Shown in pieces: positions 15,601 through 36,392 of a stretch of 64,000 nucleotides of DNA. The DNA is from Arenicola marina. Its lineage: Eukaryota; Annelida; Polychaeta; Arenicolidae. The notes below the pieces were generated by a model, which saw nothing but the letters and a program-made list of their open reading frames with translations, ran no database searches and had not been told where the DNA came from. Numbering within the stretch: position 1 is the first letter of the stretch; every line of letters begins with the position of its first letter. The DNA lies in assembly GCA_964019135.1 (NCBI GenBank), contig OZ025257.1:19743971-19807970 (forward strand), in the 5' to 3' direction. The translations under genes and the position numbers were made by a program.

Positions 15601-17415
15601 TCTCATTCCCTCCATATACTCGCCTGTCACTCTCATTCTCTCCATATACTCGCCTGTCACTCTCATTCTCTCCATATACTCTCCTGTCACTCTCATTCCC
15701 TCCATATACTCTCCTGTCACTCTCATTGCCTCCATATACTCGCCTGTCACTCTCATTCTCTCCAAATACTCTCCTGTCACTCTCATTTCCTCCATATACT
15801 CTCCTGTCACTCTCATTGCCTCCATATACTCGCCTGTCACTCCCATTCCCTCCGTATACTCGCCTGTCACTCCCATTCTCTCCATGTACTCTCCTGTCAC
15901 TCTCATTCCCTCCATATACTCTCCTGGCACTCTTATTCACTCCATATACTCGCCTGTCACTCTCATTCTCTCCAAATACTCTCCTGTCACTCTCATTTCC
16001 TCCATATACTCTCCTGTCACTCTCATTGCCTCCATATACTCGCCTGTCACTCCCATTCCCTCCGTATACTCGCCTGTCACTCCCATTCTCTCCATGTACT
16101 CTCCTGTCACTCTCATTCCCTCCATATACTCTCCTGGCACTCTTATTCTCTCCATATACTCGCCTGTCACTCTCATTCCCTCCATATACACTCCTATCAC
16201 TCTCATTCCCTCCATATACTCTCCCGGCACTCTCATTCCCTCCATATACTCTCCTGTCACTCTCATTCCTTCCATATACTCTCCTGTCACTCTCATTCCC
16301 TCCATATACTCGCCTGTCACTCTCATTCCCTCCATATACTCGCCTGTCACTCTCATTCTCTCCATATACTCGTCTGTCACTCTCATTCCCTCCATATACT
16401 CGCCTGTCACTCCCATTCCCTCCATATACTCTCCTGTCACTCTCATTCTCTCCATATACTCGCCTGTCACTCTCATTCTCTCCATATACTCGTCTGTCAC
16501 TCTCATTCCCTCCATATACTCGTCTGTCACTCTCATTCCCTCCATATACTCGCCTGTCACTCCCATTCCCTCCATATACTCTCCTGTCACTCTCATTCTC
16601 TCCATATACTCGCCTGTCACTCTCATTCTCTCCATATACTCGCCTGTCACTCTCATTCTCTCCATATACTCGTCTGTCACTCTCATTCCCTCCATATACT
16701 CGCCTGTCACTCCCATTCCCTCCATATACTCTCCTGTCACTCTCATTCTCTCCATATACTCGCCTGTCACTCTCATTCTCTCCATATACTCTCCTGTCAC
16801 TCTCATTCCCTCCATATATTCTCCTGTCACTCTCATTCCCTTCATATACTCGCCTGTTAATCTCATTGCCTCCGTATACTCGCCTGTCACTCTCATTCTC
16901 TCCATATACTCTCCTGTCACTCTCATTTCCTCCATATACTCGCCTGTCACTCTCATTCTCTCCATATACTCGCCTGTCACTCCCATTCCCTCCATATACT
17001 CGCCTGTCACTCTCATTCTCTCCATATACTCGCCTGTCACTCTCATTCCCTCCATATACTCTCCTGTCACTCTCATTGCCTCCATATACTCTCCTGTCAC
17101 TCTCATTCTCTCCATATACTCGCCTGTCACTCCCATTCCCTCCATATACTCGCCTGTCACTCCCATTCCCTCCATATACTCGCCTGTCACTCTCATTCTC
17201 TCCATATACTCGCCTGTCACTCTCATTGCCTCCATATACTCGCCTGTCACTCTCATTCTCTCCATATACTCTCCTGTCACTCTCATTTCCTCCATATACT
17301 CTCCTGTCACTCTCATTGCCTCCATATACACTCCTGTCACTCTCATTCCCTCCATATACTCGCCTGTCACTCCCATTCCCTCCATATACTCTCCTGTCAC
17401 TCTCATTGCCTCCAT
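12650..17415 (+). repeat. 30-bp minisatellite, left half of a split array
   Basis: About 158 copies of a 30-bp unit (consensus in two pieces: CACTCTCATTCCCTCC and ATATACTCTCCTGT, with T/G variation in TCTCC/TCGCC) run head to tail. Units are diverged at the left edge and homogeneous inside. Blocks of units are duplicated as a whole: about 630 bp from 13,500 reappear identically from 14,519, and the match resumes after a four-unit indel. Because 30 is divisible by three and the unit lacks stops in several frames, open frames above 1,000 codons appear on both strands. They lack gene context and I treat them as artefacts. The array stops abruptly at the terminal repeat of the 17.4-32.2-kb element. 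Confidence 0.97.
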
Positions 17416-17455
17416 CCCAGATAGCATGCAAACATTAACTTAACGTTAAATTATC
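17416..17455 (+). repeat. Left terminal inverted repeat of the 14.7-kb element
   Basis: The sequence begins CCCAGATAGCATGCAAACAT and continues into TTAACGTT. It matches the reverse complement of 32,118-32,157 with a handful of mismatches over about 40 bases. Confidence 0.85.
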
Positions 17456-17880
17456 GTTTGCAGTAGCGTTAATGCAACGTTTTAGACGAACGTTAAGAAA
17501 ATATTTTTTTGCTCATTGACTTAACGTTATATTAATGTTGACAATTTAACGTTAAATGCTAATCATTATCTAACCATGTTTGAACCGTTAAATCAAAAAC
17601 GTTATATTAATTAATGTTTAACGTTACATGCAAACCATGGTTGAACCGTTATATCAATAACGTTATATTAACGCTCATTATTTAACGTTAAATGCTAATC
17701 ATTATCTAACCATGTTTGAACCGTTAAAACAAAGATTAACGTTAAATGCTAACCATGGTTGAACCGTTATACCAATAACATTATATTAATGCTCACTATT
17801 TAACGTTAAATGCTAACCATTATCTAACCATTGTTGAACCGTTATTTCAACCTTATATTAATGTTCACTAGCAAAGATAC
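17420..17880. repeat. AACGTTA-rich subterminal repeats, left side
   Basis: Roughly 120-bp units containing AACGTTAAATGCTAACCAT and TTGAACCGTTAT recur about four times, with many palindromic AACGTT cores. The right end has a different array that also carries AACGTTA-type cores. Such subterminal repeats are often transposase-binding regions, which is inference here. Confidence 0.75.
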
Positions 17881-18030
17881 AGTTTGTAGCCCAGTGGAGG
17901 ATCCAAGGGGCGGGGAAACGCTTTTGGATGGCAAACAAACACCGGCTAATACCCTGGCCCCTAGAGCCCTTGCATTCAATTCAATATAAGTAAAACAAAG
18001 AAATACATTCACAATATAATAGGATAATAC

Positions 18031-18380
18031 ATGTATATGGTATTTTACCATGGTTACCGTGGTATACCATGGTGTTTTAACATGGTTACCATGGTATGCC
18101 ATGGTGTTTTGGCGAATGTATTTTACCATGGTAATATTATATGGTATACCATGGTAAATTACCATGGTAATATCATATGGTATACCATGGTAAATTACCA
18201 TGGTAATATTCTATGGTATACCATGGTAAATTACCATGGTAATATTATATGGTATACCATGGTAAATTACCATCGCCAAAACACCATGGTATAATGTACC
18301 ATGGTATGCTAATGTAACATGGTATCTTACCAAGGTATGTATACCATGATACTTTACTACATGGATACCATGGTATGCTA
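18031..18380. repeat. TACCATGGTA palindromic repeat cluster, left side
   Basis: About 36-bp units built from the palindromes TACCATGGTA and ATGGTATACCAT are repeated with few changes around 18,121-18,270, flanked by looser copies. The cluster can fold on itself extensively. A shorter cluster of the same palindrome lies at 30,660-30,705 near the other end of the element. Confidence 0.85.
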
Positions 18381-19096
18381 AAGCACTAATAGACATCAAG
18401 TCTGAAAAATACAAGAATAAAGAATACAAAGATTCACAATCCGCTTTCATATATGTATTATTATAAAAAGGTGCAGTATGTGAACATGTGACATGCACAT
18501 TATATACATATATTTAGCTCATATAGATATATTAGAAAAATAAGCTACCATTATGTAAAGAAATGTTCATTGCTTATATGCATATTGACGTACAAAGTAA
18601 ATCAACAAATAATATTATACACCATACAGCAGCATTATTTTTACGCACATTTTCCACACATTACATTTTAAATTTTACATAATTTTTTTTAAAGTGACAG
18701 GACTTTGCCAAATAAAAACAATGCTTGTTTAAATATTGAAATTCAATTGTGTTCAGTTTACAATGTATACATTTGAATGAATTGAAAGAAAATGCCATAA
18801 TGGAAAAAAACAGCTGTATTGGATATCTACCCAAATAATATGTATACTCTAACTCATATGCAGGAATCTACTTATAATCTAGTTATAATTGAATTGATAA
18901 AGTAATCTTTCTTATTCCTAACTGATACATACAAATTCCACCTCAGAATGAGATGCACTACCATGCAGTACTTTGGAACTACCACATAACTACTACTCAA
19001 CTTTTAAATGACTACTACTCAATGCATATAACATATATATAAACAATACTTTATATACAAATATATTCATTTCAATTGATAAAACAAGTAGATCCT
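18381..19096. other. AT-rich interior of the element, no supported gene
   Basis: I see no repeat structure or coding frame I can support here. It lies downstream of the possible terminal exon at 19,097-19,197. Confidence 0.45.
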
Positions 19097-19197
19097 TCAG
19101 TTCTTCTTTCCAGTCTGCACCACATTGCTGATCTTCTCTCGCATTAACTTGCAAATTTCTTTTACATCTTTGCCACAAAATTTTCTCCTGACTTGAT
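19097..19197 (-). CDS. Possible 3-prime terminal exon of an unrecognised gene inside the element
   Basis: On the minus strand a good acceptor (pyrimidine-rich, ending TTACAG) at 19,198 is followed by 33 codons read in phase 1, closing with TGA at 19,097. The peptide is basic and helix-prone, with R-R-K-F-C-G-K-D-V-K-E-I-C-K and L-M-R-E-K-I blocks, and looks more protein-like than its AT-rich surroundings. The partner exon would lie at higher coordinates but I could not place it. I do not recognise the family; chance is a real alternative. Confidence 0.3.
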
Positions 19198-20009
19198 CTG
19201 TAACAAAGGATACACTTATCATCTTGGTAAATTATTATTCACCAGTGTTGTTTAGCATTATAAGACATGGATGGCAATATGTTGGAAAGATATCATACAA
19301 AAGTTTGTACCACATTTATTAATACATTACGTAAAACGGAAAATAAATACCAAAGATAATTTTATAAATGGTATAGCCTAAAACCAGGACCATACCGTGG
19401 CACATGGTTCCCACATGAAACACTAAAATAATTCCCTGGTTTTTCCCTGAGCCATTGAAAGTTTCCCTGAGTTAACAGAACAGCATGTGGCCTTCAACCT
19501 CGGAACATCAACATCACCAAATAATTAGGGCCAGGCATGCAACAGGGTCAGGGCTAAGGTTGAGGCACTCGTAGACACATGTACATACAAAGGAACCAAT
19601 AAAGTAACTTATGTTAACGAGGGAAATAGGCCTTATTGGTCCCAATCTCTGTACAAAGGTTCATACACATAAGAACAGATGATGCTTTCACTGGGTGTGC
19701 TCTAGAAATTCATTTTAATTAGCCACTGTGGCTAAACACCTTCAATTTTCTTTAGCCACACACAGATCCCTTTAGCCACATATATGTTGTATTTTTCCCC
19801 TCCGTATCACTGCAGGCAATCAGTTTCGCTAAGTTGTGTTTTGATCGTTGATAAAAAAAACCAGGCCATTTTCTTTTTTTTCGTCAATGTGGCGACATGT
19901 ATGGGCCAGCCTGGCGCCCCATACAATTTGCTTTCGCCATTGGCGATAAGGCAAACGGCTAGCGCGCACCTAGGTTCCATGAAAATGGCCCCAGGCTAGT
20001 GTGGCAGTA

Positions 20010-20150
20010 TAGCCTATACTATAGGGCACAGGCGCTCAGATTTGTTGACAAACAATACACCAAGGGTCAAGCACCTTTCTTTATAGGTGCTTGACCCTTG
20101 CCTTGGGGTATTGTTTGTCACCAAATCTGAGCGCCTGTGCTATAGCCTAC
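20010..20150. repeat. Long hairpin (inverted repeat) inside the element
   Basis: Arms of about 60-65 bases (about 20,010-20,076 and 20,085-20,150) are near-complementary around a 6-8-base loop. The outer part reads GCACAGGCGCTCAGATTTG and the inner part GGGTCAAGCACCT. It may be a foldback MITE or a structural part of the element. Confidence 0.85.
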
Positions 20151-20494
20151 AAGCTCCAGATCGACCTCGGGCGTTTGCCATTTCACCCGGCGCTTGGGGT
20201 TCCTGTACTGTATCAACTGACACGGGCCGGTGGCGGGAAGGGGTGGGGGGGGGGGGGCGAGGAGTGGTATGTCCCCCGTATGACCAGTTGACAAGACTGT
20301 AAACAAATTTCCATTTATAAAGGCTCCTTTTGTCCTTATGTTAAGGTGTCACGCTCAAACCTGGGTGTTTTCAGGTGCTATACAGTATAGTATTTATAAA
20401 TACACACCTTTCATTCATATACATAAGCAAATATTCGTGAATATGAGCTAATCGTATACTCATGCCACAGAACTGATGAGATATTCGGCGTCAT

Positions 20495-20680
20495 GGAAAA
20501 CGTGTTACGTCTTAAACAGAACATTTTGGAAAAATGGATATATGGGTACAACCAATAAAATAATGCCATTAAATAGGTCATGTATTTGCGCAACTTATAC
20601 TAAAAGGAAGAGATAACGCATTAGCGGAATCAATAGTAAAGTCGTTTTGAAGGGTAGCGCAGAAGACGTAACTAGGACGC
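20495..20680. repeat. GACGTAAC motifs, left side of the element
   Basis: Two copies of the motif that is frequent at 28.0-30.3 kb occur here, one on each strand (GTGTTACGTCTT near 20,500 and AAGACGTAACTAGGACGC near 20,665). They could mark the left border region of the transposase-bearing segment. Confidence 0.4.
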
Positions 20681-21539
20681 AAAAAATGTTTCGCTTTCAG
20701 CCATAATGCCAGAACGGCAACGGGAATTCGTATTTATTTTGTACCGAATCATAGAACAAACAGACCTGAGAACATTTCTTGTTGGCCTAACCAATAAATT
20801 CAAAATCCTTAATTTGCGGGTATCTGTAAGTTCCAGATGTAACAGGACACGATTTTTAAGGTTTAGCCATCCATTTGTCTATAAATGTGAAGTCAGTGCT
20901 GATCAATGCTGATTCATTTGCGTGCAGGTTATAAACACAAAGTTTTTAAAATATATTGTTTCTACTGATTTGTGGCTTTTTAATAATTCATGGCCCCCTA
21001 TGTTCTCTCACGCATTCCGAGGGCCGACAACTGGACTTGTAGACGTTGCATGACTAATATGAAATTTAAGTGTGCAAAGATATATATATTGCCACGTAAA
21101 CATAATTAAATCCCTGCAATTTTGCCCCTGAACATACCCGTACATTAGGCCAAAAATAGTAGGGCCCCCCTATGCTTGATTTGTTTTATTGGTTCTGTGC
21201 CACTCCACAGTCAATGAGGCAAAGGCGAAGAAAGAATGACCCTTTGATCCGACTCATGTACCGAATATTACAAACGGTAAACCCACAAACTATCGACCCA
21301 AATTCCAGTTCGCTACCAACTGAAGATGCTACCAATCCATAATTCACAGAAATTCAGTGAAAGTCTAATAACTTTATAAAGTTACATATATTTCAAGCAA
21401 TTGAAACAAAAAATAACAAGATAAATATGTACCACTAATATTTATTATTTAAGCAATTTCTTGCTGATTATAAAGGGAACAAAATTGCTTGCTGGAAGCT
21501 TCGAACGTCAACAGCTCCTAATCAAATCTGTAACGAAAT

Positions 21540-21893
21540 AAAATACACAATAAAAATATGTTATAAAACATAATTTCGCATCATACTGACATAAAGATAC
21601 AATTCTTTGCACTTTGTCAGGCGTTAGCGTTGAAGTATTTAGCAATCGTTTTAGTCCGCCTGCAGTGAATTTATTGGGGTACCTTAATGAAGTTTCGTAC
21701 AGGCGCCTGTGAATCCCACCTGTAAAATTGGCGTCTCCCACACATCACAACGGAAGGTGGCGTGATCTCGGAACCCTCCGCTTCATATATTTGGAAGCGG
21801 ATGTCTCCCAAAGTCCGCATGCCCTGCGAAGTTCCACGCTTGCGGTGATAACACAGAACCCACCAGCTAAGCGGATCTGAAGCAGGTTCCACC
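21540..21893 (-). pseudogene. Possible broken exon of unknown function inside the element
   Basis: A GC-richer island in AT-rich DNA has an acceptor-like TTGTTTAG at 21,894 (minus strand). A reading frame of about 50-60 codons follows (W-W-V-L-C-Y-H-R-K-R-G-T-S-Q-G-M-R-T near its start). Near the GGG at about 21,738 the protein-like signal passes to another frame that continues about 50 codons (H-R-R-L-Y-E-T-S-L-R-Y-P-N-K-F). This suggests a one-base indel in a once-coding exon. No family recognised. Confidence 0.3.
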
Positions 21894-22674
21894 TAAACAA
21901 TAGATGTATATTTGCTTACGCACAAATCATTTTTCTCTTATGAAAGATGTTACATAAACTGGTACAAGAGACATGTTCAGTAAGTTGTGCTACATCCAGT
22001 CGAAAATCGAAAAAACAAAACAAAAACATAGTTGATCACATCAGCCAAATATTTCTACAACATAACGAACACCAAATAACAAAAGCATAGCATAAATTAA
22101 GATTTCAAACAAAACAGGCTGCCAAAGTGAATGCAATCAGACACGTTCGTTGATCGCACACACTCGTAAAAACACTTTTAAACGTTACTTTTTTACCTAA
22201 TAGAAAAGCAGGAATTGCTAATATCAATTCTGGCTTCATATTAAATATCATATACAGCATCAGGTAAAGGGTTCACGTCCAACATATTAAACCATTAAAA
22301 TCGATGTGAAGGAAAGAATTACAGGTGTTGAGATTACATTAGGGGTCTTCCGACTGGAGCGTCAGCGTGGGGTGGCAAATATCTTTCACATACGATTCTC
22401 TTACATTCTCAAGTTATAAATAAAACCTAAATGAACGTATAAACATCGAACGCGAATAATTGTCCCTTATTAAGTAACTACTAACGATGATGGCTGGGTA
22501 GGATTCCTGTCCATGGCGTATACACAGATGTGTACCCACTTGAAACCGTCTAGCACCCATACAAAAGAAATGAATTGACATGTAGAAGAATACACGTTAT
22601 CTGGAATACTTTAGGCATCTGCAATGCTCAACGCGGGAATCAATATTACAACTGTACGAAATTATTAAATTTAA

Positions 22675-25347
22675 CTAGGCCAGGACTCCGATGGAATCAA
22701 TATGACGGGTTGACATCCGTAGACATATATCTATTGTTATGACAGGGACATTATACCTGACTATTTCATCTCCTGGCTTTTGGTCTTCTCCCGTCTCATC
22801 CCCTTGTCCCTGGTCTTCTCTCATATCATCCTCTGCTTCCTGGTCTTCGCTCGTCTCATCCCCTTGTCCCTGGTCTTTTCTCGTCTCATCCCCTGCCCCC
22901 TGGTCTTCTCTCGTGTCATCCCCTTGTCGTTGGACCTCTCTCGTCTCATCCTCTGCTTCCTGGTCTTGTCTCGTCTCATCCTCTGCTCCTTGGTCTTCGC
23001 TCGTCTCAACCCCTGGTTCCTGGTCTTCTTTCGTGTCATCCCCTGGTTCATGGTCTTCTCTCGTCTCATCCTCTGCTCCCTGGTCTTCTCTCGTCTCATC
23101 CCTTGGTCGTTGGACTTCTCTCGTCTCATCCCATGGTTCCTGGTCTTCTCTCGTCTCATCCCCCGGTCCCTGGTCTTCTCCCGTCTCATCTCCTGGTCCC
23201 TGGTCTTCTCCCGTCTCATCCCCTGGTCCCTGGTCTTCTTCCGCCTCATCTCCTGGTCCCTGGTCTTCTCTCGTCTCATCCCCTGGTCCCTGGTCTTCTC
23301 CCGTCTCATTCCCTGGTCCCTGGTCTTCTCTCGTCTCATCCCCTGGTCCCTGGTCTTCTCCCGTCTCATCCCCTGGTCCCTGGTCTTCTCCCGTCTCATT
23401 TCCTGGTCCTTGGTCTTCTCCCGTCTCATCCCCTGGTCCCTGGTCGTCTCTCGTCTCATCCCCTGGTCCCTGGTCGTCCCTCGTCTCATCCCCTGGTCCC
23501 TGGTCTTCTCTCGTCTCATCCCCTGGTCCCTGGTCTTCTCCCGTCTCATCCCCTGGTCCCTGGTCTTCTCTCGTCTCATCCCCTGGTCCCTGGTCGTCTC
23601 TCGTCTCATCCCCTGGTCCCTGGTCTTCTCTCGTCTCATCCCCTGATCTCTGGTCTTCTCTTCTCTCATCCCCTGTACCCTGGTCTTCTCTCGTGTCATC
23701 CCCTGATCTCTGGTCTTCTCTTCTCTCATCCCCTGCTCCCTGGTCTTCTCTCGTCTCATCCCATGGTTCCTGGTCTTCTCTCGTCTCATCCCCTGGTCCC
23801 TGGCCTTGTCTCGTCTCATCCCCTGGTCCCTGGTCTTCTCCCGTCTCATCCCATGGTTCCTGGTCTTCTCTCGTCTCATTCCCCGGTCCCTGGTCTTCTC
23901 CCGTCTCATCTCCTGGTCCCTGGTCTTCTCCCGTCTCATCCCCTGGTCCCTGGTCTTCTCCCGCCTCATCTCCTGGTCCCTGGCCTTCTCTCGTCTCATC
24001 CCCTGGTCCCTGGTCTTCTCCCGTCTCATCCCCTGGTCCCTGGTCTTCTCTCGTCTCATCCCCTGGTCCCTGGTCTTCTCTCGTCTCATCCCCTGGTCCC
24101 TGGTCTTCTCTCGTCTCATCCTCTGGTCCCTGGCCTTCTCTCGCTTTATCCTCTGCTCCCGGGTCTTGTGTCGTCTCATCCACTGCTCCCCGATCTTCTC
24201 TCATCTCATCCCCTGGTCCCTGGTCTTCCCTCAATTCATCCTCTGGTCTATTAGCTTCTTTCGTCTCATCCACTGCTCCCTGGTTTTCTCCCGTTCCATC
24301 ATCTGGTAGCTTGACTTCTACTGCCTCATCCTCTGATCCAATTGTCACGTTCGGGCTTGTTACAGACTGTAACATGTCCTCGAAAGGCATATTGATGACG
24401 TCTTTCAAGGAGAATGAGATGTCGTCGTCAAATAAGCTGGCGTCTTCTGCACTATCACTACAGGAAATGGGCAACAAGAGCACGAAGTGATTGGGCTGCC
24501 ACACAGCCTCTGGCAGGTCACAACCCCTCGTGTGTATCCACATGATATGGATTGGTCCTGAGGATTCTTCAGTCCTGGGATGAAATATCCTCTGTGTGTC
24601 TCTTCTCACTGTATGTCCCCCATATCTCGGATAGACGGACACAATCCGCCGGCCCAGTACGCTTGATAGCGCTGCGAGCTGCCAAAGCCCCATGTAACTC
24701 CCCAGTTGGGTAGTAACACGCACTTCCCTGGAGAAGATAATCTTCTCCACTTCCTTGGTCAACTTCTCTCCTGGTTCATATACTTGCGAATACATGGCGA
24801 ATGTTCGGGTCACATTAGGATTGCCTCCTTTGCTTGCACCTTTTCGCATGCATTTGTTATTCAAGTAGAATTGTCTCTGTGTAGCCAGTTCAATTGCTAC
24901 CCGCGCTCGAATCTCTCTGTGGTTTTCCTCATGTCCATACAAAGCTAGACTACCGCACCTTGCCAAGCAGTTGCCATCCCCATACACATTGGCCGGGAAA
25001 AGCGGCAGATCTTCTAACGGTACATCGTTTGGCTTCAGTTCCAAACTAACACCGTCTACCGATGTTTTGCAGTTACGGAGACACAGGTTCTCGAAGCTTG
25101 GTGGTGATGGGGGCAACAATTTCTCCAGCATTGTCGACAGTTGTAGCAGGTTCTCGAAGGATTCACACTGTTGCAATACTGCCAATATGTCCTCGAACTG
25201 TGTAGCATCCCCCACCACAGTTTCGTTTGACAATGTTCTGTCTCCGTGGTTTCTCCATGAACTGTTTTGGGTTTTGTTCTCCTCTGCCGGTGTGTTACGA
25301 CTTTTTCCTTTTCTAGATTTATTTTCTTGCTCCTTGCATCGCCATTC
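22675..25347 (-). CDS. OTU-like cysteine protease with acidic decapeptide-repeat tail (transposon-encoded)
   Basis: The frame is open from 25,347 to the stop at 22,675. It has no ATG at its start (25,233 is only a TTG), which suggests it is read as a continuation of the transposase frame by a -1 shift or splicing. Counting from 25,233, residues about 75-260 form an OTU-like domain: Y-G-D-G-N-C-L near 84-90 gives the catalytic Asp and Cys, and N-H-F-V-L-L near 248-253 gives the catalytic His. Residues about 315-810 are some 50 copies of a ten-residue unit like G-P-G-D-E-T-R-E-D-Q, encoded by a 30-bp tandem repeat, strongly acidic and probably disordered. A unique 30-residue end follows. OTU enzymes cleave ubiquitin linkages; substrate and role here are unknown. 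Opposite-strand open frames are shadows of the repeat. Confidence 0.7.
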   Translation of the reverse strand, partial: EWRCKEQENKSRKGKSRNTPAEENKTQNSSWRNHGDRTLSNETVVGDATQFEDILAVLQQCESFENLLQLSTMLEKLLPPSPPSFENLCLRNCKTSVDGVSLELKPNDVPLEDLPLFPANVYGDGNCLARCGSLALYGHEENHREIRARVAIELATQRQFYLNNKCMRKGASKGGNPNVTRTFAMYSQVYEPGEKLTKEVEKIIFSREVRVTTQLGSYMGLWQLAALSSVLGRRIVSVYPRYGGHTVRRDTQRIFHPRTEESSGPIHIMWIHTRGCDLPEAVWQPNHFVLLLPISCSDSAEDASLFDDDISFSLKDVINMPFEDMLQSVTSPNVTIGSEDEAVEVKLPDDGTGENQGAVDETKEANRPEDELREDQGPGDEMREDRGAVDETTQDPGAEDKAREGQGPEDETREDQGPGDETREDQGPGDETREDQGPGDETGEDQGPGDETREGQGPGDEAGEDQGPGDETGEDQGPGDETGEDQGPGNETREDQEPWDETGEDQGPGDETRQGQGPGDETREDQEPWDETREDQGAGDERREDQRSGDDTREDQGTGDERREDQRSGDETREDQGPGDETRDDQGPGDETREDQGPGDETGEDQGPGDETREDQGPGDETRDDQGPGDETRDDQGPGDETGEDQGPGNETGEDQGPGDETGEDQGPGDETREDQGPGNETGEDQGPGDETREDQGPGDEAEEDQGPGDETGEDQGPGDETGEDQGPGDETREDQEPWDETREVQRPRDETREDQGAEDETREDHEPGDDTKEDQEPGVETSEDQGAEDETRQDQEAEDETREVQRQGDDTREDQGAGDETRKDQGQGDETSEDQEAEDDMREDQGQGDETGEDQKPGDEIVRYNVPVITIDICLRMSTRHIDSIGVLA
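22760..24350 (-). repeat. 30-bp coding minisatellite in the OTU-like gene
   Basis: About 50 units of 30 bp encode the acidic decapeptide on the minus strand. Variants group in blocks (CCTGGTCCC, CCTGCTCCC, CCATGGTTCC types on the plus strand), showing expansion by block duplication while the frame was kept throughout. Confidence 0.9.
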
Positions 25348-27497
25348 TTAAACCTTTCTTTCTGTTGTGCATTGGTTCCACGACATGGTTCTGTCTTGCT
25401 GTCAGCGCCAGCCTGGTCTCTTGGTTTCCGTTCGTGCATGCCTTCACGATCTTTTTTTGCGATTTTTTTCTCCACCTTGTTCTTAGGTTGGCCTTGGCGC
25501 CTTTTTTCACCTTTTTGGATTACATGGTCTTGCCAATCGGTGGCATAGTCCGTGTTGATACACACATCCACATTTTCTGCTCTTGTACAGTTTTGGCAAT
25601 AGCATGAAAGATTCCTTGCCTGAACTACACCCATTTCCACGGAACGAACCGAGTGAACCTGTTGTGTGCCTGCCAAACTTCGGAGTCTTTGTTCTGCAGT
25701 TGGGCGCTCAATATCTTCTACGTAGAAGAAATATCTTCGTTTGTGCAAGCAATCGTCGGTTTTGTCATCGATGACGAGGTTCGCGTCACAGAAGTCATAC
25801 AGTTCTCTTGCATCCCGAATGACACCATGTCTGGACTTCACATGCATTGATGCAGCTTTTTTCACAATACCTCCCAATGCGTCGCACGGCCCCTTCCCGT
25901 GCCGCGAACCAAAATAGGCCCATTCAAAGACAACACCATGTCCGCCTTGCTCATACAAATGTGCGAATGGGACTTTGGATTTGTACTGTGCGGCACACCC
26001 GTCGCTAAATTGGACTTCGTGGTTGAAGGCAAAGCCCTTGTCTCTAATATAGCTGTCTTGTTCACTGACAAATCTTTTGACAGCATATGCGTCGTGTTTT
26101 AGATCTGGAGAAATGAAGACTGCAGAATCCTCTACAACTGCAGACTGACAGGTGGGACACCTGTAGTATGCAATTGTTGGGTGGATTGTAGCCTGTTGAT
26201 ACATGTCATATGCAGACTGAACCTCGTCCTGGTGATTACATCGATAATTCTCGGCAAAATCTGCTATTGTCAGCAGCCAATCCGGCGGCAAAGTCGCCTT
26301 GAGTTGTTTGAACTGTTGCCGCTGCCAATGCGCTACGAATAGATGCTTCGTCAGAGTAACTGCTTCTTCCATCAGTTCTGCAATGCAGTCTGTTGCTGTT
26401 CCAAATTTGTCAACAAGGATTTTGCGTTTTGAGGTGTTGCCCCTGCTGTCTGTTACAGTTCCGTTTTGCCATTTCTGCCATGCAAGTGTCTTCTTTCCCA
26501 ATACCTCAACCGTGGTAGTTAGCTTTTCCTTTATCTTATGCACACCGCAATGGGCGCAAGTTCTGTCGATGCACCTCTTATCATTGTACATTCCTGTTTT
26601 CTCACACATACTGAACGCACTGACATCATATTTGTCTTTCAGAACAGCCGACTGGCCTTGTTTGTTCGCAGCCTCATTTAATGTCTTCAGTTTCAGCTCA
26701 ACATTAACGCAATATTCGCAGAGACACGCATTGAATTTCGCGTGGTTCGCCGTCAAGCACTCTTTAGGGCGCAGCTTGCTGAAATGGCTGAGAGAAATTC
26801 CACTTTGTTTTTTGTTTGCGATGAAATCTGCATGTAACTTCTGTATGGATTTTGACAGTACAACTTTCTGAACTAGGGTCTTCGCTTTCACTGTCTGTCT
26901 CCCAGGTAGAGTAGTTGATTCGTCCCTGTAGTAACCTTCGACGGTTTTCTTTTCCGCATCTGACATTCTGTTGAACCTCGGTGGCATATCATCATGACCC
27001 AGGCAAGAGGCAGACCTCCAAAAGTGCAATTGAAGGTCTAACATTTTTCTCATTTTACTGTCGCGACCACTTTTCGCGGCGATACAACTAACGATGAAGC
27101 GATATTTGTTCCTCCCCTTTAACGATTTATCGCTTTTCAAGCATTTCAGAGACTCTTTCAAATTGTTAACAATTCTGGCGGAGACTCTGTGTCTATCCTT
27201 GGATGTAGGTGTGCAAATTATGCCTCTCTTGTTCAAAAGTGTCTTCTTCTTGGGAGTGACATTGGAAAGCTGGTCCTCTATTTGAGAAACTAAGTCATGT
27301 GCTGAGACTGAATTGTCAAAATCTAACTTCTTCTGTGCTTTGCAGGTTGTGTAATGTTGTCTTCTTCTTTCCAGTTCCCGACGTCTTGCCTGTGACGACA
27401 TCTGGCTTCGTTGTTTCCGTTTTGCCTCTCGCCACTTCTCTCGCATTTTTTCTCCCTCCTTCCTTGTGTTAACACCAACCGTTGACTTGTCCCCCAT
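25056..27497 (-). CDS. Putative DDD/E transposase (DFAENY / SDG / HGKG family)
   Basis: From the ATG at 27,497 an 813-codon frame runs to 25,056; the last 80-100 codons are probably out of frame, because the OTU-like frame overlaps them. A basic N-terminus (residues 1-60) leads to Cys pairs near 258-263 and 314-320 that could bind zinc. The core has L-T-I-A-D-F-A-E-N-Y near 409-418, V-Q-F-S-D-G near 495-500 and H-G-K-G-P-C-D-A-L-G-G near 533-543. Asp413, Asp499 and Asp539 are my candidate catalytic triad for an RNase-H-like fold. I remember this motif set from multicopy uncharacterised invertebrate proteins but cannot name the superfamily. Upstream sequence at 27,480-27,767 continues the protein in another frame, so this copy may be mutated, spliced or frameshifted. 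Confidence 0.7.
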   Translation of the reverse strand: MGDKSTVGVNTRKEGEKMREKWREAKRKQRSQMSSQARRRELERRRQHYTTCKAQKKLDFDNSVSAHDLVSQIEDQLSNVTPKKKTLLNKRGIICTPTSKDRHRVSARIVNNLKESLKCLKSDKSLKGRNKYRFIVSCIAAKSGRDSKMRKMLDLQLHFWRSASCLGHDDMPPRFNRMSDAEKKTVEGYYRDESTTLPGRQTVKAKTLVQKVVLSKSIQKLHADFIANKKQSGISLSHFSKLRPKECLTANHAKFNACLCEYCVNVELKLKTLNEAANKQGQSAVLKDKYDVSAFSMCEKTGMYNDKRCIDRTCAHCGVHKIKEKLTTTVEVLGKKTLAWQKWQNGTVTDSRGNTSKRKILVDKFGTATDCIAELMEEAVTLTKHLFVAHWQRQQFKQLKATLPPDWLLTIADFAENYRCNHQDEVQSAYDMYQQATIHPTIAYYRCPTCQSAVVEDSAVFISPDLKHDAYAVKRFVSEQDSYIRDKGFAFNHEVQFSDGCAAQYKSKVPFAHLYEQGGHGVVFEWAYFGSRHGKGPCDALGGIVKKAASMHVKSRHGVIRDARELYDFCDANLVIDDKTDDCLHKRRYFFYVEDIERPTAEQRLRSLAGTQQVHSVRSVEMGVVQARNLSCYCQNCTRAENVDVCINTDYATDWQDHVIQKGEKRRQGQPKNKVEKKIAKKDREGMHERKPRDQAGADSKTEPCRGTNAQQKERFKNGDARSKKINLEKEKVVTHRQRRTKPKTVHGETTETEHCQTKLWWGMLHSSRTYWQYCNSVNPSRTCYNCRQCWRNCCPHHHQASRTCVSVTAKHR

Positions 27498-27767
27498 TCA
27501 GCCTTGCGACGTTCCCTCATTGCGCGCATCCGTATCTTCGATTTTTCAGCCATCAGTTTCTTCCGCGTAGGTGAAAGCGATTGACGATAGTTCCGAGACT
27601 TCCACGCGTCAGCAGCTTTGTACATGGCATAAGCATGTTCATCCGCCTTCAGGGTCGCCCGGCTTTGCTCATAATACTGATGCCTGGATTGTCCTGGTGT
27701 TTTCTTACACGATATGGGTTTCTCAGTGTGCAGCCGCACTCTTAATTGATATGAAGAATTTTCCCTG
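27480..27767 (-). CDS. Upstream exon of the transposase gene, in a shifted frame
   Basis: A splice acceptor (TATTTGCAG at 27,768 on the minus strand) opens a frame rich in Lys, Arg and Tyr (R-H-Q-Y-Y-E-Q-S-R-A, then M-R-A-M-R-E-R-R-K-A-E-W) with the same composition as the basic start of the transposase. The protein-like signal passes into the transposase frame at a run of five G near 27,482-27,487. One extra G would join the two frames, so a single-base loss, or a start at the internal ATG, is likely. Confidence 0.5.
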
Positions 27768-28014
27768 CAAATATTGTTATGTTAAAACTACATGTGGTCA
27801 ACAACTAATCCCAAAATATAATATGACAACATCTGAAAATGCTCAATTGAAACTACCATCAACCTATTTGCGCCTAAGGATTTGAGTTACATCTCGTCGC
27901 GTCTTGCTCGATCAGGCCAATTCGACATGCTCAATAGCTTCAAATCCTCAAGTTTGTTTCATAATCTTTCTTTTCTAAAGCACAGCCACTAATATTTCCA
28001 GGAAGGTCGGTGTA

Positions 28015-30250
28015 AGTTGCACAAACAACCACCTTACGACAAGACGCAACAGAGACACCAGAGACATGGTGTCCCTGTTACATATCGGATCAACAATAAA
28101 GGTCAAGGTACAAACTACTCAGACAATTAATATGTCAAGTTCCAGTTACACAAGGTATTGATAAGATAGCGACAAGATATTGCTTATAGAGGAGTAATTT
28201 CATTGGTGGGTGTAATTTCGAACGTGTTCTGACACAAACTAAGGTGTAACAAAGACACCAATACTTAAATTGTAGGACATCACAGGACGTAACGAAGACG
28301 CAAAAATAATGGCTCTCTTATATATGTTCGTAAATCTCGCAGTTCATTTATGCAGACCCTTCTCACATTATTTAGGCCAGCATGCCATTAACATGTATCT
28401 TTACGCTGACATAGCGGTGAAGATACATGTGATGCGTATATGACGATACTCGCAATGATGTAACATTGACTCCGAAACAACTTGAACAGATTGTGTCTCA
28501 GTTACGTATTTGCAACACGAAGAGCCACAACTACTGGTACTCACAAAGGAAATAAATATGAACATAAAATCTACATGGCGCTCTTTGTACACATCAACTA
28601 GACCTTCTACTAATATATTATAAAGTCTGTAGTGAAATAAATTGGGTTTCTGTCCTAGACGTAACGAAAGAAACTATCAGGATGGAATTGTGTAATGTCT
28701 CAGTTACATCTCGCCGAAACATGATTAAACAGTCCGATCAATATACTCATACGACTATGGCATCGGTTTCTTCCTTTTAAAGTAAGCAGTTTGTATCTTA
28801 AATAGAAGTATTTTCACCAGGAAGTCGCCCAAGTTGATCCGATATAGTTTCTTTTACGCAGACGCAACAAAGACGCCAAAAAAATGTGTCCCAAGTTACA
28901 CCTTGGTCGTAAACAAAGAAATACACAATAAAATATCAAATGACAGTGTTTCACTCACATCAATCATGTCGGTATAGCTAAGGGATATAGAACATCTATG
29001 TCACTGGTGTTCGATTTTTAGAAAACGTGCCTACTTGGTTAGAATTAAAATGTTTAAAGCCAGATGTAACACAGACTCTAACCCTGGGATTGCGTCTTTG
29101 TTGCACCTCAGAGACACCTGAATACATATAAATACTTCAGGGTAGTATTGTTTTTTTTAACAGCGAAGTGCATACCTTTATCCTATATTCTTTGCAGAAC
29201 TCTGATTAAAAGTTTCGATATAACATAAATATTAGACAATTCCCATACGTCATGCAGACGTAACAATGGACACAATATGATCACAGCAGTTGCAAGTAAA
29301 CGTTAGTCAAATTACTCGCTGTGCGCCCACTGAGTTCCCCAATAATCTATTAAGCTCCCATAGTTCAAGTCAGAAACACTAAAGCTTCACAGACAATATC
29401 AAAGAAACATGACTACAATTATTGCCTAATAAGTATTGCATAAAAATGACAGCATATACATAGTTTTACTGAGACGTAACACAATCAAATTGTACTTACA
29501 TTGATAAGCTGGTCATCCATTTGTTGCCGCGGCAGGATAATGGCTTCCCGGTTCGCGCCAAAAACGACGACACTCGGCATAACCCATTGTTGTAAAAAAA
29601 AAAACAGTCACGCGCTCTCTGTACATTGGTTTGTTACGTCATAAAGTTTCATTATCCTTGGCGAGTCAAAGACGTAACATTATGACGCGAAAATGGTTGA
29701 CGGTATTTGAAGTTCGAAAACAGAAAACTGCAGATCGTGCAGATTATAAACACTTGCTGATAAGCATTTTTGACGGCTCTTGGCTCATTTGGGGGGCGAT
29801 ATTTCTAAATACGCACTGGATGAATTGTAAGCGCTTCTGATCTTCGGGACGTAACGAAATTGACACCATTGTGTTACGTCTGGTAAGAAAAAGTTATAGA
29901 AACGTTTCGACCTACTTTTGGGTAGTTATTACATACTAGAATCCATCATGTCGCTTCCCCGTCCCATTTTGACTCGTTTTAAACTCTTGTAGAGTTTATA
30001 CGCCAGTTTAAAACTTGGCATTATCATATTGAATCTTGCTTGCTTGTTTCAAGACACGAAAAAAAACCGACTGACGTCCACCACTTTTGTACTCAAAATA
30101 TGTCTCTCCGTTTACCTCGTTCAACCTAAATCAATTTCTTTCATTCAGATATAACCCACTATGGGACTCTCTTGAGAGCGCATGAAAAGTGGACGTTTTC
30201 TTTATTGGCACGAGTCCTAGGGGTGAACATACGCGACGTAACAAAATGTT
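28015..30250. repeat. Dispersed GACGTAACAAAGAC subterminal motifs
   Basis: At least ten imperfect copies of GACGTAACAAAGACRCC occur on either strand, for example near 28,020, 28,230, 28,270, 28,660, 28,860, 29,065, 29,255, 29,470, 29,670, 29,850 (followed by an inverted GTGTTACGTC) and 30,236. They are spaced by 50-300 bases and are not a tandem array. Scattered short motifs next to a transposase gene are typical of transposase-binding sites, which is inference. Confidence 0.6.
29499..29582 (-). CDS. Candidate first exon of the transposase gene
   Basis: On the minus strand an ATG at 29,582 opens 28 codons that end exactly at a strong donor (AAT followed by GTAAGT) at 29,498. It could splice to the acceptor at 27,768, but the phases do not match (0 versus 2), so a missing middle exon, another acceptor or chance must be considered. 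Confidence 0.25.
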
Positions 30251-30659
30251 CATGACATCGAATTGTGCATCAACTCCTCTCGCTTTTCCGCAATATTTTT
30301 AAAACTTCGCGCATGCGCCGTGGGATCTCCGCTGCGCATCTCCGCTAGGCGGCAGCGTAATATGCCTCCTGGTGGCGCACTGCTCACTTCGCGCACTGTG
30401 GCACGGGGTGGGGGGACTCAGTACATTATTGGGTTTGCGGCTGGGGTGGGAGGGGGGCAGAGGGAGTCCGCGGTAAACCCCTACTTGACCGCCAAAATAC
30501 GCTTGTAAGGGGCGTTTCACCCCGAAAATCGGCTCATACGTTTGAACGCGAAAATATCCGCTCGGAAGGGGATTTTTTTTCCTTGGACCGAGCCCGCTCG
30601 GTTTATTATATTCCCCGGGAAACTCGCTCTACAAACGCACATTTTCAGAGTCCTCCTCT

Positions 30660-30705
30660 GGAGGTATACCATGGTAAGGTATACCATGGTAAACCATGGT
30701 ATATT
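30660..30705. repeat. TACCATGGTA palindromes, right side of the element
   Basis: Three overlapping copies (GTATACCATGGTAAGG and related) match the cluster at 18,031-18,380, linking both sides of the 14.7-kb element. Confidence 0.75.
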
Positions 30706-31094
30706 TTCCTAAGGGTAGGACGCCATCCCCTCTTTATATTCAGTCCTTAAATGACGGTTCCATACAGTGAGCACTTTGTTTCAAGCAAACATGTTTTCGT
30801 ATATTGAATTTTCCTTGAATTAAATAAATGCTAAATCTGACAAATATTGGAAATATATTATTCCGCGTAAGCTAGTACTCCGCTTAAACTGAGCGGGAAT
30901 CGGTCTATAGCTCAACGGATTTCGTAGCCCGCCCGAGCTCGACTTTCACACCTCGCTTACACATTGCAGTTAGCGTCAATCTGATCGATTTCATAGTCGC
31001 AATCGAGATATTAGTAAACGTGAAAAAGGAGCATTTTGGATGAATGCAAGTATAGGCTTATATCCCATACCCGAGCCCGACCAAGTTAGCTAGG

Positions 31095-31245
31095 ACAGAC
31101 GTGGGACGTCTGAATTATGACGTACGTGGGACGTCTAAATTATGACGTACGTGGGACGTCTAAATTATGACGTACGTGGGACGTCTAAATTATGACGTAC
31201 GTGGGACGTCTGAATTATGACGTACGTGGGACGTCTGAGTTAAGA
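31095..31245 (+). repeat. 25-bp tandem repeat (GACGTACGTGGGACGTC type)
   Basis: Six nearly identical 25-bp units containing TATGACGTACGTGGGACGTC follow each other. The unit contains the palindrome GACGTACGT and would pair with itself. It is part of the right subterminal region. Confidence 0.9.
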
Positions 31246-31379
31246 CCACATTGCGACCAGACTAAATTGGTCTTGACCTGGTCTTCATGTGGTCTTCGAC
31301 CGACCGACCAATATAAGACGTCCCGACGTCGGGTGCCCACTGGGTATCTATTTTTGCCAAAACGTTCTCGATGCAAACA

Positions 31380-32085
31380 TTAATATACAAACTGTTATAT
31401 AATATTGGGGTAACGCTCTCAATGAAAACGTTAATATGCGAACTGTAATCTAATGTTGTGGTACCGTTCACGATGCAAACGTTAATATACAAACTGTTAT
31501 ATAATGTTGTGGCACCGTGCTCGATGCTAACGTTGAAATGCGAATTGTTATACAATGTGGCCAAAACGTTCTCGATGCAAACGTTAATATACAAACTGTT
31601 ATCTAATGTTGTGGTACCGTTCTCGATGCAAATGTAAAAATGCGAATTGTTATCTAATGTTGTGGTAACGTTCTCGATGCTAACATTAATGGGCGAATTG
31701 TTATCTAATGTTGTGGTAACGTTCTCGATGCTAACATTAATGGGCGAATTGTTATCTAATGTTGTGGTAACGTTCTCGATGCTAACATTAATGGGCGAAT
31801 TGTTATCTAATGTTGTGGTAACGTTCTCGATGCAAACGTTAATATACAAACTGTTATCTAATGTTGTGTTAACGTTCTCGACGCTAATGTTAATATGCGA
31901 ATTGTTATCTAATGTTGTGGTACCGTTCTCGGTGCAAACGTTAAAAGGCGAATTGTTATCTAATGTTGTGGTAACGTTCTCGATGCTAACGTTAATAGGC
32001 GAATTGTTATCTAATGTTGCGGTAACGTTCGCGATGCTAACGTTAATATGCGAATTGTTATCTAATGTGGTAGTAACGTTAGCAT
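31380..32085. repeat. 51-bp tandem repeat, right subterminal region
   Basis: About 13-14 units of 51 bp built on GTTATCTAATGTTGTGGTAA and CGTTCTCGATGCTAACGTTA run to within 75 bases of the right terminal repeat. Four central units (about 31,640-31,850) are almost identical. A 17-residue repeating open frame on the minus strand follows from 51 being divisible by three and is not evidence of a gene. Confidence 0.9.
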
Positions 32086-32117
32086 GCTAACGTAAACCAA
32101 AAAACAACCAATCTAAC

Positions 32118-32157
32118 CATGATAAAACGTTAAACTAACGTTTACATGCTATCTGGG
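32118..32157 (-). repeat. Right terminal inverted repeat of the 14.7-kb element
   Basis: Read on the minus strand it begins CCCAGATAGCATGTAAACGT and continues TTAACGTT, matching the left end. It abuts AT and then the minisatellite. Confidence 0.85.
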
Positions 32158-35100
32158 ATATACTCGCCTGTCACTCTCATTCTCTCCATATACTCTCCTG
32201 TCACTCTCATTTCCTCCATATACTCTCCTGTCACTCTCATTGCCTCCATATACTCGCCTGTCACTCTCATTCTCTCCATATACTCTCCTGTCACTCTCAT
32301 TTCCTCCATATACTCTCCTGTCACTCTCATTGCCTCCATATACTCTCCTGGCACTCTCATTCTCTCCATATACTCGTCTGTCACTCTCATTGCCTCCATA
32401 TACACTCCTGTCACTCTCATTTCCTCCATATACTCTCCTGTCACTCTCATTGCCTCCATATACTCTCCTGTCACTCTCATTTCCTCCATATACTCTCCTG
32501 TCACTCTCATTGCCTCCATATACTCGCCTGTCACTCCCATTCCCTCCGTATATTTGCCTGTCACACCCATTCTCTCCATGTACTCTCCTGTCACTCTCAT
32601 TTCCTCCATATACTCGCCTGTTACTCTCATTCCCTCCATATACTCTCCTGTCACTCTCATTCTCTCCATATACTCGCCTGTCACTCTCATTCCCTCCATA
32701 TACACTCCTGTCACTCTCATTCTCTCCATATACTCGCCTGTCACTCCCATTCCCTCCATATACTCGCCTGTCACTCTCATTTCCTCCATATACTCTCCTG
32801 TCACTCTCATTCCCTCCATATACTCGCCTGTCACTCTCATTCCCTCCATATACTCGCCTGTCACTCTCATTCCCTCCATATACTCTCCTGTCACTCTCAT
32901 TGCCTCCATATACTCGCCTGTCACTCTCATTCTCTCCATATGCTCGCCTGTCACTCTCATTCCCTCCATATACTCGCCTGTCACTCTCATTCTCTCCATA
33001 TACTCTCCTGTCACTCTCATTCTCTCCATATACTCTCCTGTCACTCTCATTGCCTCCATATACTCGCCTGTCACTCCCATTCCCTCCATATACTCGCCTG
33101 TCACTCTCATTCCCTCCATATACTCGCCTGTCACTCTCATTCTCTCCATATACTCTCCTGTCACTCTCATTCTCTCCATATACTCTCCTGTCACTCTCAT
33201 TGCCTCCATATACTCGCCTGTCACTCTCATTCCCTCCATATACTCGCCTGTCACTCTCATTCCCTCCATATACTCGCCTGTCACTCTCATTCCCTCCATA
33301 TACTCTCCTGTCACTCTCATTGCCTCCATATACTCGCCTGTCACTCTCATTCCCTCCATATACTCGCCTGTCACTCCCATTCCCTCCATATACTCTCCTG
33401 TCACTCTCATTCTCTCCATATACTCTCCTGTCACTCTCATTCTCTCCATATACTCTCCTGTCACTCTCATTCCCTCCATATACTCGCCTGTCACTCTCAT
33501 TCCCTCCATATACTCGCCTGTCACTCTCATTCCCTCCATATACTCTCCTGTCACTCTCATTGCCTCCATATACTCGCCTGTCACTCTCATTCTCTCCATA
33601 TACTCTCCTGTCACTCTCATTCCCTCCATATACTCTCCTGTCACTCTCATTGCCTCCATATACTCGCCTGTCACTCCCATTCCCTCCGTATAGTTGCCTG
33701 TCACACCCATTCTCTCCATATACTCTCCTGTCACTCTCATTCTCTCCATATACTCTCCTGTCACTCTCATTCCCTCCATATACTCGCCTGTCGCTCTCAT
33801 TCTCTCCATATACTCTCCTGTCACTCTCATTCTCTCCATATACTCTCCTGTCACTCTCATTCCCTCCATATACTCTCCTGTCACTCTCATTCCCTCCATA
33901 TACTCGCCTGTCACTCTCATTCTCTCCATATACTCTCCTGTCACTCTCATTCTCTCCATATACTCGCCTGTCACTCTCATTCTCTCCATATACTCTCCTG
34001 TCACTCTCATTCTCTCCATATACTCTCCTGTCACTCTCATTCTCTCCATATACTCTCCTGTCACTCTCATTCCCTCCATATACTCTCCTGTCACTCTCAT
34101 TCCCTCCATATACTCGCCTGTCACTCTCATTCTCTCCATATACTCTCCTGTTACTCTCATTCCCTCCATATACTCTCCTGTCACTCTCATTCTCTCCATA
34201 TACTCTCCTGTCACTCTCATTCCCTCCATATACTCTCCTGTCACTCTCATTCCCTCCATATACTCGCCTGTCACTCTCATTCTCTCCATATACTCTCCTG
34301 TCACTCTCATTCTCTCCATATACTCTCCTGTCACTCTCATTCTCTCCATATACTCTCCTGTCACTCTCATTCTCTCCATATACTCTCCTGTCACTCTCAT
34401 TCTCTCCATATACTCTCCTGTCACTCTCATTCTCTCCATATACTCTCCTGTTACTCTCATTCTCTCCATATACTCTCCTGTCACTCTCATTCCCTCCATA
34501 TACTCGCCTGTCACTCTCATTGCCTCCATATACTCGCCTGTCACTCTCATTCTCTCCATATACTCTCCTGTCACTCTCATTCTCTCCATATACTCTCCTG
34601 TCACTCTCATTCCCTCCATATACTCGCCTGTCACTCTCATTCCCTCCATATACTCGCCTGTCACTCTCATTCCCTCCATATACTCTCCTGTCACTCTCAT
34701 TGCCTCCATATACTCGCCTGTCACTCTCATTCTCTCCATATACTCGCCTGTCACTCTCATTCCCTCCATATACTCTCCTGTCACTCTCATTGCCTCCATA
34801 TACTCGCCTGTCACTCTCATTCTCTCCATATACTCGCCTGTCACTCTCATTCCCTCCATATACTCTCCTGTCACTCTCATTCCCTCCATATACTCTCCTG
34901 TCACTCTCATTGCCTCCATATACTCGCCTGTCACTCCCATTCCCTCCGTATAGTTGCCTGTCACACCCATTCTCTCCATATACTCTCCTGTCACTCTCAT
35001 TTCCTCCATATACTCTCCTGGCACTCTCATTCTCTCCATATACTCGTCTGTCACTCTCATTCCCTCCATATACACTCCTGTCACTCTCATTCCCTCCATA

Positions 35101-36392
35101 TACTCTCCTGGCACTCTCATTCCCTCCATATACACTCCTGTCACTCTCATTCCCTCCATATACTCTCCTGTCACTCTCATTGCCTCCATATACTCGCCTG
35201 TCACTCTCATTCTCTCCATATACTCGCCTGTCACTCTCATTCCCTCCATATACTCTCCTGTCACTCTCATTGCCTCCATATACTCGCCTGTCACTCTCAT
35301 TCTCTCCATATACTCGCCTGTCACTCTCATTCCCTCCATATACTCTCCTGTCACTCTCATTCCCTCCATATACTCTCCTGTCACTCTCATTGCCTCCATA
35401 TACTCGCCTGTCACTCCCATTCCCTCCGTATAGTTGCCTGTCACTCCCATTCTCTCCATATACTCTCCTGTCACTCTCATTTCCTCCATATACTCTCCTG
35501 GCACTCTCATTCTCTCCATATACTCGTCTGTCACTCTCATTCCCTCCATATACACTCCTGTCACTCTCATTCCCTCCATATACTCTCCTGGCACTCTCAT
35601 TCCCTCCATATACACTCCTGTCACTCTCATTCCCTCCATATACTCTCCTGGCACTCTCATTCCCTCCATATACTCTCCTGGCACTCTCATTCTCTCCATG
35701 TACTCGTCTGTCACTCTCATTCCCTCCATATACACTCCTGTCACTCTCATTCCCTCCATATACTCTCCTGGCACTCTCATTCCCTCCATATACTCTCCTG
35801 TCACTCTCATTCCTTCCATATACTCGCCTGTCACTCCCATTCCCTCCATATACTCTCCTGTCACTCTCATTCTCTCCATATACTCGCCTGTCACTCTCAT
35901 TCCCTCCATATACTCTCCTGTCACTCTCATTCCCTCCATATACTCTCCTGGCACTCTCATTCCCTCCATATACTCTCCTGGCACTCTCATTCCCTCCATA
36001 TACTCTCCTGTCACTCTCATTCCTTCCATATACTCGCCTGTCACTCTCATTCTCTCCATATACACTCCTGTCACTCTCATTCCCTCCATATACTCGCCTG
36101 TCACTCCCATTCCCTCCATATACTCGTCTGTCACTCTCATTCCCTCCATATACTCTCCTGGCACTCTCATTCCCTCCATATACTCTCCTGTCACTCTCAT
36201 TCCTTCCATATACTCTCCTGTCATTCCCATTCCCTCCGTATACACTCCTGTCACTCTCATTCCCTCCATATACTCGCCTGTTACTCTCATTCCCTCCATA
36301 TACTCGCCTGTCACTCTCAGTCCCTTCATATACTCTCCTGTCATTCTCATTCCCTCCATATACTCTCCTGTCTCTCTCATTCCCTCCATATC
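32158..36392 (+). repeat. 30-bp minisatellite, right half of the split array
   Basis: About 141 copies of the same 30-bp unit as at 12,650-17,415 run in the same orientation and in register with it once the element is removed. A 480-bp block (16 units) at 34,681-35,160 is repeated at 35,161-35,640 with a single visible difference, so a very recent tandem duplication occurred. Units decay toward 36,390. Long open frames on both strands are artefacts of the period. Confidence 0.97.

Follow-up and report, generated by a model that had tools for sequence, protein, structure and literature searches.

Transposons of the TRC branch of CACTA/EnSpm, which are described from Schistosoma, Aedes and Tribolium, are reported to possess CCC ends and 2-bp direct repeats (PMC1636069), and the same two features are given for Spongebob of Hydra (PMC4298943). 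In SmTRC1 of Schistosoma, 2-bp direct repeats are reported for seven of 14 copies (PMC1636069). Elements of the Sola superfamily are described as having a DDD transposase, 4-bp duplications, variable ends and lengths of mostly 2-9 kb, some over 15 kb (PMC10741241); AT-rich 4-bp sites (AWWT) are given for Sola2 (PMC3627910), and Sola elements have been reported from bivalves (PMC10294476). The locus compared here with these systems lies in a 64,000-bp stretch of DNA from the annelid Arenicola marina (the window; positions 19,743,971-19,807,970 of contig OZ025257.1; genome size, 867 Mb). It is an insertion of 14,742 bp (17,416-32,157) between two halves of a 30-bp minisatellite, and it is read, with a probability of about 0.9, as two nested transposons, the outer of which is of the CACTA/TRC type. 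The target and the parts of the nest are as follows.

12670..17415, no strand: left half of the 30-bp minisatellite that was the target (Tandem Repeats Finder (TRF), phase test)
17414..17415, no strand: left copy of the 2-bp target site duplication AT (identical 2-bp flanks)
17416..20474, plus strand: left part of the outer element (CACTA/TRC-type, gene-less), with its inverted repeat from 17416 (family-copy alignment, joint in 12 copies)
20471..20474, no strand: left copy of the 4-bp target site duplication AACT of the inner element (empty sites)
20475..30271, minus strand: inner transposon of 9797 bp, with its genes on the minus strand (uninterrupted sites, unique end pattern)
20475..20511, plus strand: left inner inverted repeat (GATGAGATATTCGGCGTCATGG...TGTTACGTC), 26/40 identical to the other end
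30235..30271, minus strand: right inner inverted repeat (GATGCACAATTCGATGTCATG...TGTTACGTC), 26/40 identical to the other end
30272..30275, no strand: right copy of the 4-bp target site duplication AACT (empty sites)
30276..32157, plus strand: right part of the outer element, which follows the second AACT at 30272-30275 (family-copy alignment, joint in 12 copies)
32158..32159, no strand: right copy of the 2-bp target site duplication AT (identical 2-bp flanks)
32158..36397, no strand: right half of the same 30-bp minisatellite, in phase once one AT is discounted (TRF, phase test)

The outer boundaries are fixed by the minisatellite. When both arrays were compared with one consensus unit, the final 300 bp of the left array lay at phase 0 with a match of 94.7%, and the initial 300 bp of the right array lay at phase 28 from 32,158 and at phase 0 from 32,160; exactly one extra AT therefore separates two in-phase halves. 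The phase test on both arrays thus confirms the base-exact boundaries and the kept 30-bp phase that a preliminary description of this DNA had claimed. The ends of the insertion are inverted and both begin with CCCAGATAGCATG, with identity at 13 of 13, 36 of 45 and 40 of 60 bases, in keeping with the inverted repeats of about 40 bases given in that description. The unit which it had taken for one large 14.7-kb element is, on the other hand, composed of a 4.94-kb outer element, gene-less and with CCCAGATAGC ends, and a separate 9.8-kb transposon inside, so that a second, equally exact insertion within the first had been overlooked.

The second insertion is recorded by the other copies of the outer family, which align with the first about 3.06 kb and the last about 1.9 kb of the window element, the middle being missing (rows of this alignment were seen for nine of 12 long copies, some of which have private segments). 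The region of the joint is present in 12 of the 18 end pairs fetched from the genome and is uninterrupted in all 12, with a single AACT in the sequence ...CAGAACTC..., small differences around the joint and total sizes of 4.7-6.2 kb; the six pairs without the region are L045, L047, L050, L051, L052 and L054/L055. Genome-wide, the pattern of the uninterrupted joint occurs at 78 places, as against 0 for its control. The inner inverted repeats are imperfect (GATG....ATTCG..GTCATG....TGTTACGTC), but their identity of 26/40 compares with a best value of 24 among 20,000 random pairs. The exact inner-end pattern has two matches in the genome, one each way and both in the window, and neither a second copy of the inner transposon nor a second nest was found by this pattern, which diverged copies would escape. 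Because of the empty sites, the inner ends and the duplicated AACT, the locus is read as a 9.8-kb transposon in a 4.94-kb element in a minisatellite, and a classification of the whole 14.7-kb unit by the transposase it contains was dropped once the nest had been recognised.

The outer element belongs to a multicopy family. The exact 13-mer CCCAGATAGCATG occurs at 426 places (218 and 208 on the two strands), compared with 15 (12 and 3) for the reversed control, and the shared ends are therefore not due to chance. From 100 of these 426 places, on contigs C1-C3, 18 close plus/minus pairs were chosen by eye. Their ends are spaced 0.8-10.2 kb apart; paired CCCAGATAGC ends, which the preliminary description had expected at other loci, thus do occur, and none of the pairs has a spacing of 14.7 kb. 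When the window is added, the 2-bp flanks are identical in 17 of 19 pairs and the 3-bp flanks in none of 19. Two of the pairs (L051 and L052) share their flanks and represent a duplicated locus, so that 16 of 18 distinct sites carry the 2-bp duplication; the flanks are unmatched in L047 (TA/CA) and in L054/L055 (AA/GT). The pairs were selected by the 13-mer, yet the duplications sit directly outside the CCC. A cut-and-paste-type insertion with a 2-bp duplication, as first proposed, is supported by these flanks; of the AT duplication itself, the length of 2 bp holds for the family, whereas AT is found in the window only and GT, CA, AA, CG, TA, AC or GA is duplicated at the other sampled sites. 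With seven other dinucleotides duplicated, an AT-specific insertion was rejected. One fetched copy (L041, 101-645) has a doubled left end of the outer family; the two left ends follow each other at a distance of 544 bp, both upstream of a single right end, and only the one nearer to the right end has a matching 2-bp flank.

Both ends of the outer element carry dense repeats that contain AACGTT.

17416..17915, plus strand: subterminal region with 11 AACGTT repeats over 500 bp (mean of shuffles 0.17)
31316..32157, plus strand: subterminal region of 51-bp tandem repeats, with 20 AACGTT over 842 bp (mean of shuffles 0.31; TRF, shuffle count)

CATGGTA-rich tandem arrays are also seen in both halves (18037-18325 and 30662-30692).

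A transposase is encoded by longer copies with the same ends, L050 (9.6 kb) and L054/L055 (10.2 kb), which carry an EnSpm/CACTA-type open reading frame (ORF) that is uninterrupted in L054 (699 aa). The genome holds four copies of this ORF at 99-100% identity, L054 included, one of which (in L050) has a stop, and the remaining 63 of at least 67 matches show 37-76% identity; the count is a lower bound, as 64 of 284 candidates were scored. In the L054 protein, DUF4218 was matched at E 2e-5, below the Pfam cut-off. Some of its relatives are labelled Transposase domain-containing in UniRef, and one of them (P0073) bears PF02992. The motifs LDYMHLACLG, CxxC and HxxxH were recognised by eye; the first fits the D-x-M-H-x3-L-G motif given for animal TRC elements (PMC1636069), and the other two are as described for the CMC group (PMC12730594). 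The same-ended, gene-bearing copies are thus assigned a CACTA-type (Transposase_21) transposase by motifs and relatives, and the outer element itself shows the CCC-initial inverted repeats and the 2-bp duplication of CACTA/TRC elements. On account of the CCC ends, the 2-bp duplications and the protein motifs, it is best read as a gene-less copy of the TRC branch of CACTA. It shares with the branch the CCC-initial inverted repeats (CCCAGTCAAC in Aedes, CCCAGCCAACATTGAC in Hydra), and its family shares the 2-bp duplications and the D-x-M-H-x3-L-G motif, as far as these are described in the reports cited (PMC1636069, PMC4298943); it differs in that the window copy is gene-less, holds a second transposon and has dense AACGTT repeats at its ends.

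The inner transposon comprises a gene block and a long non-coding region.

25056..27497, minus strand: transposase ORF, in which D413, D499 and D539 are invariant (26-sequence alignment)
27323..27781, minus strand: N-terminal transposase stretch in a different frame, resembling the N-terminus of protein P0001 (frame change near 27500)
22675..25347, minus strand: ORF of an OTU-like cysteine protease with DGNC and NHF motifs, followed by about 50 copies of a 10-residue repeat
22781-24294: 30-bp coding minisatellite that encodes the 10-residue repeat inside the OTU ORF (TRF)
27825..30271, minus strand: inner non-coding region with GACGTAAC (7) and GTTACGTC (2) motifs (motif count)

The GACGTAAC and GTTACGTC motifs are confined to the two ends of the inner element, mostly to 27,825-30,271, and none occurs in the gene block or in the outer element. 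The coding minisatellite has the same 30-bp period as the target minisatellite, with a different unit.

The inner transposase matches no Pfam family, a weak CcmH match (E 0.013) being below the cut-off, and no Pfam transposase family was matched by the ORFs of the window or by the relatives scanned. When the transposase by itself was searched against PDB sequences, nothing better than weak matches to carboxylesterases appeared (E 0.35 or worse). With the profile of an alignment of the window protein and 25 of 35 homologous proteins (A1; 26 sequences), which includes the OTU part of the relatives, the best PDB matches were OTU proteins (OTUD5, E 3e-4), and weak, unrelated matches included the Helitron protein Helraiser (E 0.07, an N-terminal stretch only). 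Across the 26 sequences, acidic residues are invariant at three positions only, D413, D499 and D539, all of them Asp, with no invariant Glu. Judged from this conservation, the three residues may form the catalytic triad of a DDD-type fold. The OTU part of the window is weak against Pfam (E 0.048) and keeps both DGNC and NHF. It is clearer in the relatives, where seven of 26 scanned reach E 0.01 or better (best 1.4e-13); DGNC follows the core in 19 of 38 relatives, several of those without it being short or missing the region, and NHF is also present in 16 of the 19. Relatives carry OTU and transposase as one protein, whereas the two are in separate frames in the window. Named relatives come from scallops, hard clam, mussel, a nemertean and a sea cucumber, most of the 35 matches being nameless, and the next best match in the genome itself is 34% identical. 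The window copy has frame changes near 27,500 and near 25,340; P0001 reads through the first in one frame and ends before the OTU part, and P0002 reads through both. Indels, an assembly error, a short intron or programmed frameshifting are possible causes, and the copy as it stands is unlikely to make one intact product. A candidate upstream exon near 29,500-29,580 has a frame without a plain join to the next and was not used.

The genome also contains a related family (L061-L063 among others), which encodes a transposase that is connected with the inner one at hhalign E 5e-32 and an OTU part 37% identical to that of the inner element. Its ends, GGGTSATTCTATAATTRCGGTGCAT, occur 23 times compared with 0 for the control and form nine complete pairs and five single ends; all nine complete pairs are flanked by 4-bp duplications (TTAT, ATAT, GTAT or TTAA), and the distinct sites number eight because L061 and L075/L076 share flanks. 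Since the inner element and the related family both have 4-bp duplications, this length looks typical of the lineage, on the basis of two families. Two copies of the GGGT family (C18:31,777,431 and C18:31,923,332) have the same flanks, which implies that a segment was duplicated at a distance of about 146 kb. Ten loci with related transposases (L060, L011-L018 and L020) were scanned for surrounding inverted repeats with 4-bp flanks; none appeared, at settings that also missed the inner element. At three loci (1151-1346 of L011 and 1150-1346 of L012/L013), fragments of 18S ribosomal RNA (Rfam in L011 and L012) abut a degenerate relative of the inner transposase. The junction stands directly after GATAACGAACGAGACTCT in three of the seven assembly places with the exact 18S motif, three having been read; L012 and L013, at 99.6% identity, may represent a single locus. 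These loci are possibly a member of the inner lineage inserted in ribosomal DNA. Just before 1151 and 1150 in L011 and L012, on C458 and C450, the 18S position is the same (GGAAT.GACGG) and the sequences that adjoin it differ, which suggests another 18S insertion site.

Two other accounts of the whole insertion have to be set against the nest. A single autonomous 14.7-kb element whose 5-6-kb copies are internal-deletion derivatives, as common for CACTA, is very improbable. Deletion derivatives are common among DNA transposons, and the 5-6-kb copies do retain both ends without the genes, but in each of the 12 copies with the region the supposed deletion would need to coincide with paired inverted repeats that have a 4-bp direct repeat on their outer sides, and the account was rejected on the AACT empty sites. 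Moreover, the inner transposase is akin to that of a family whose ends differ and whose duplications measure 4 bp, gives no sign of kinship with the CACTA-type protein (hhalign probability, 0.1%) and has no match in the two fetched gene-bearing copies with outer ends, which carry the CACTA-type protein. The surroundings are repeat-dense, with arrays of over 4 kb on either side, and could have led to a misjoining of two minisatellite loci or of two repeats during assembly; as both joints are exact to the base, show the duplications to be expected and keep the phase, an outcome that a chance join could hardly produce twice, and as the 2-bp rule of the outer family holds elsewhere, such an artefact is barely credible. 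Several observations nevertheless weigh against the reading as two nested transposons with an outer element of the CACTA/TRC type. The ORF of L054 has no direct PF02992 match and passes no Pfam cut-off set for CACTA models, and the flanks of L054/L055, in which alone of the fetched copies this ORF is uninterrupted, are unmatched (AA/GT). The outer ends are CC..GG, while CACTA-related elements are described as mostly CA..TG (PMC12730594), TRCs being an exception (PMC1636069). The imperfect inner inverted repeat is known from one insertion only, the inner AACT is not AT-rich, unlike the sites of the related family, and the two frame changes make it doubtful that the inner element is active today.

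For the inner transposon, the superfamily was weighed separately. It probably works like, and is a relative of, the Sola superfamily, as judged from published descriptions. In common with Sola1-3 it has three invariant Asp, a 4-bp duplication (AACT, with uninterrupted sites), a length of 9.8 kb and inverted repeats of its own, and the 4-bp sites of the related L061 family are AT-rich, like those reported for Sola2 (PMC3627910); the linked OTU domain and an AACT that is not AT-rich are differences. An OTU domain is reported for Ginger1 and some Helitrons (PMC2836005). Ginger1 elements carry a C-terminal OTU or Ulp1 protease beside the transposase, and the inner element resembles them in its linked OTU domain, but no match to the Gypsy-type integrase described for Ginger1 (PMC2836005) was found; Ginger1 was disfavoured since Pfam scans of the inner transposase and of the relatives scanned gave no integrase family. 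CACTA/CMC was likewise disfavoured by the absence of a Pfam match and by the 0.1% hhalign probability, which was obtained for A1 against the L054 ORF. Kolobok shares the 4-bp duplication but is described as TTAA-specific (PMC9587614), whereas the inner element has AACT and the related family TTAT, ATAT and GTAT besides TTAA; Kolobok and piggyBac, with their TTAA-only duplication, were set aside. It is rather doubtful that the inner element falls outside all named superfamilies as a new lineage of DDD transposases with a C-terminal OTU domain. Such a lineage would accord with the lack of a Pfam transposase in the window ORFs and the scanned relatives, with the report of OTU for Ginger1 and some Helitrons (PMC2836005) and with the literature searched, where nothing joining OTU with Sola or with EnSpm was found, which is no proof of absence. 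However, a DDD transposase, 4-bp duplications, a length of 2-9 kb or more and variable ends are the described hallmarks of Sola (PMC10741241), which is also reported from bivalves (PMC10294476), and the absence of a Sola match says little, the comparison having drawn on published descriptions. An unnamed animal DDD lineage whose transposase, often joined in a single protein with an OTU deubiquitinase-like domain, would tie integration to the control of ubiquitin signals at the break is similarly an unlikely, tentative proposal. The superfamily, left open in the preliminary description, is accordingly CACTA/TRC for the outer element and only Sola-like for the inner one.

On the simplest reading of the nest, the outer insertion would have come first and the inner one second. 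A gene-less 4.94-kb CACTA/TRC-type transposon entered the minisatellite, where its footprint is the 2-bp AT duplication, with a transposase that may have been supplied in trans by gene-bearing copies elsewhere, and the AACGTT repeats could be its binding sites. A 9.8-kb transposon entered, presumably later, an AACT of the outer element and left the 4-bp duplication that the uninterrupted sites reveal. This transposon may owe its mobility to a DDD-type transposase of its own with a linked OTU deubiquitinase-like domain; target cuts staggered by 4 bp could have produced the AACT duplication, and the GACGTAAC and GTTACGTC repeats are candidate binding sites. The reverse order, in which the inner element joined an outer copy elsewhere and the nest then moved as a unit, is conceivable, but a second nest was not seen.

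Since the empty sites are preserved both in a tandem repeat and in a multicopy transposon, two insertions could be resolved to the base within one genome. For a family without a Pfam transposase model, the exact ends, the length of the duplication and a linked OTU domain are now described. The locus also calls for caution, because an element size and gene content judged from outer ends may be those of a nest. The nest is well resolved and of known kinds; if anything in it is new, it is the OTU-linked inner lineage. Elsewhere in the window, further long minisatellites lie at 37129-38897, 46147-48381 and 56508-57101, with periods of 20, 58 and 17 bp, respectively.

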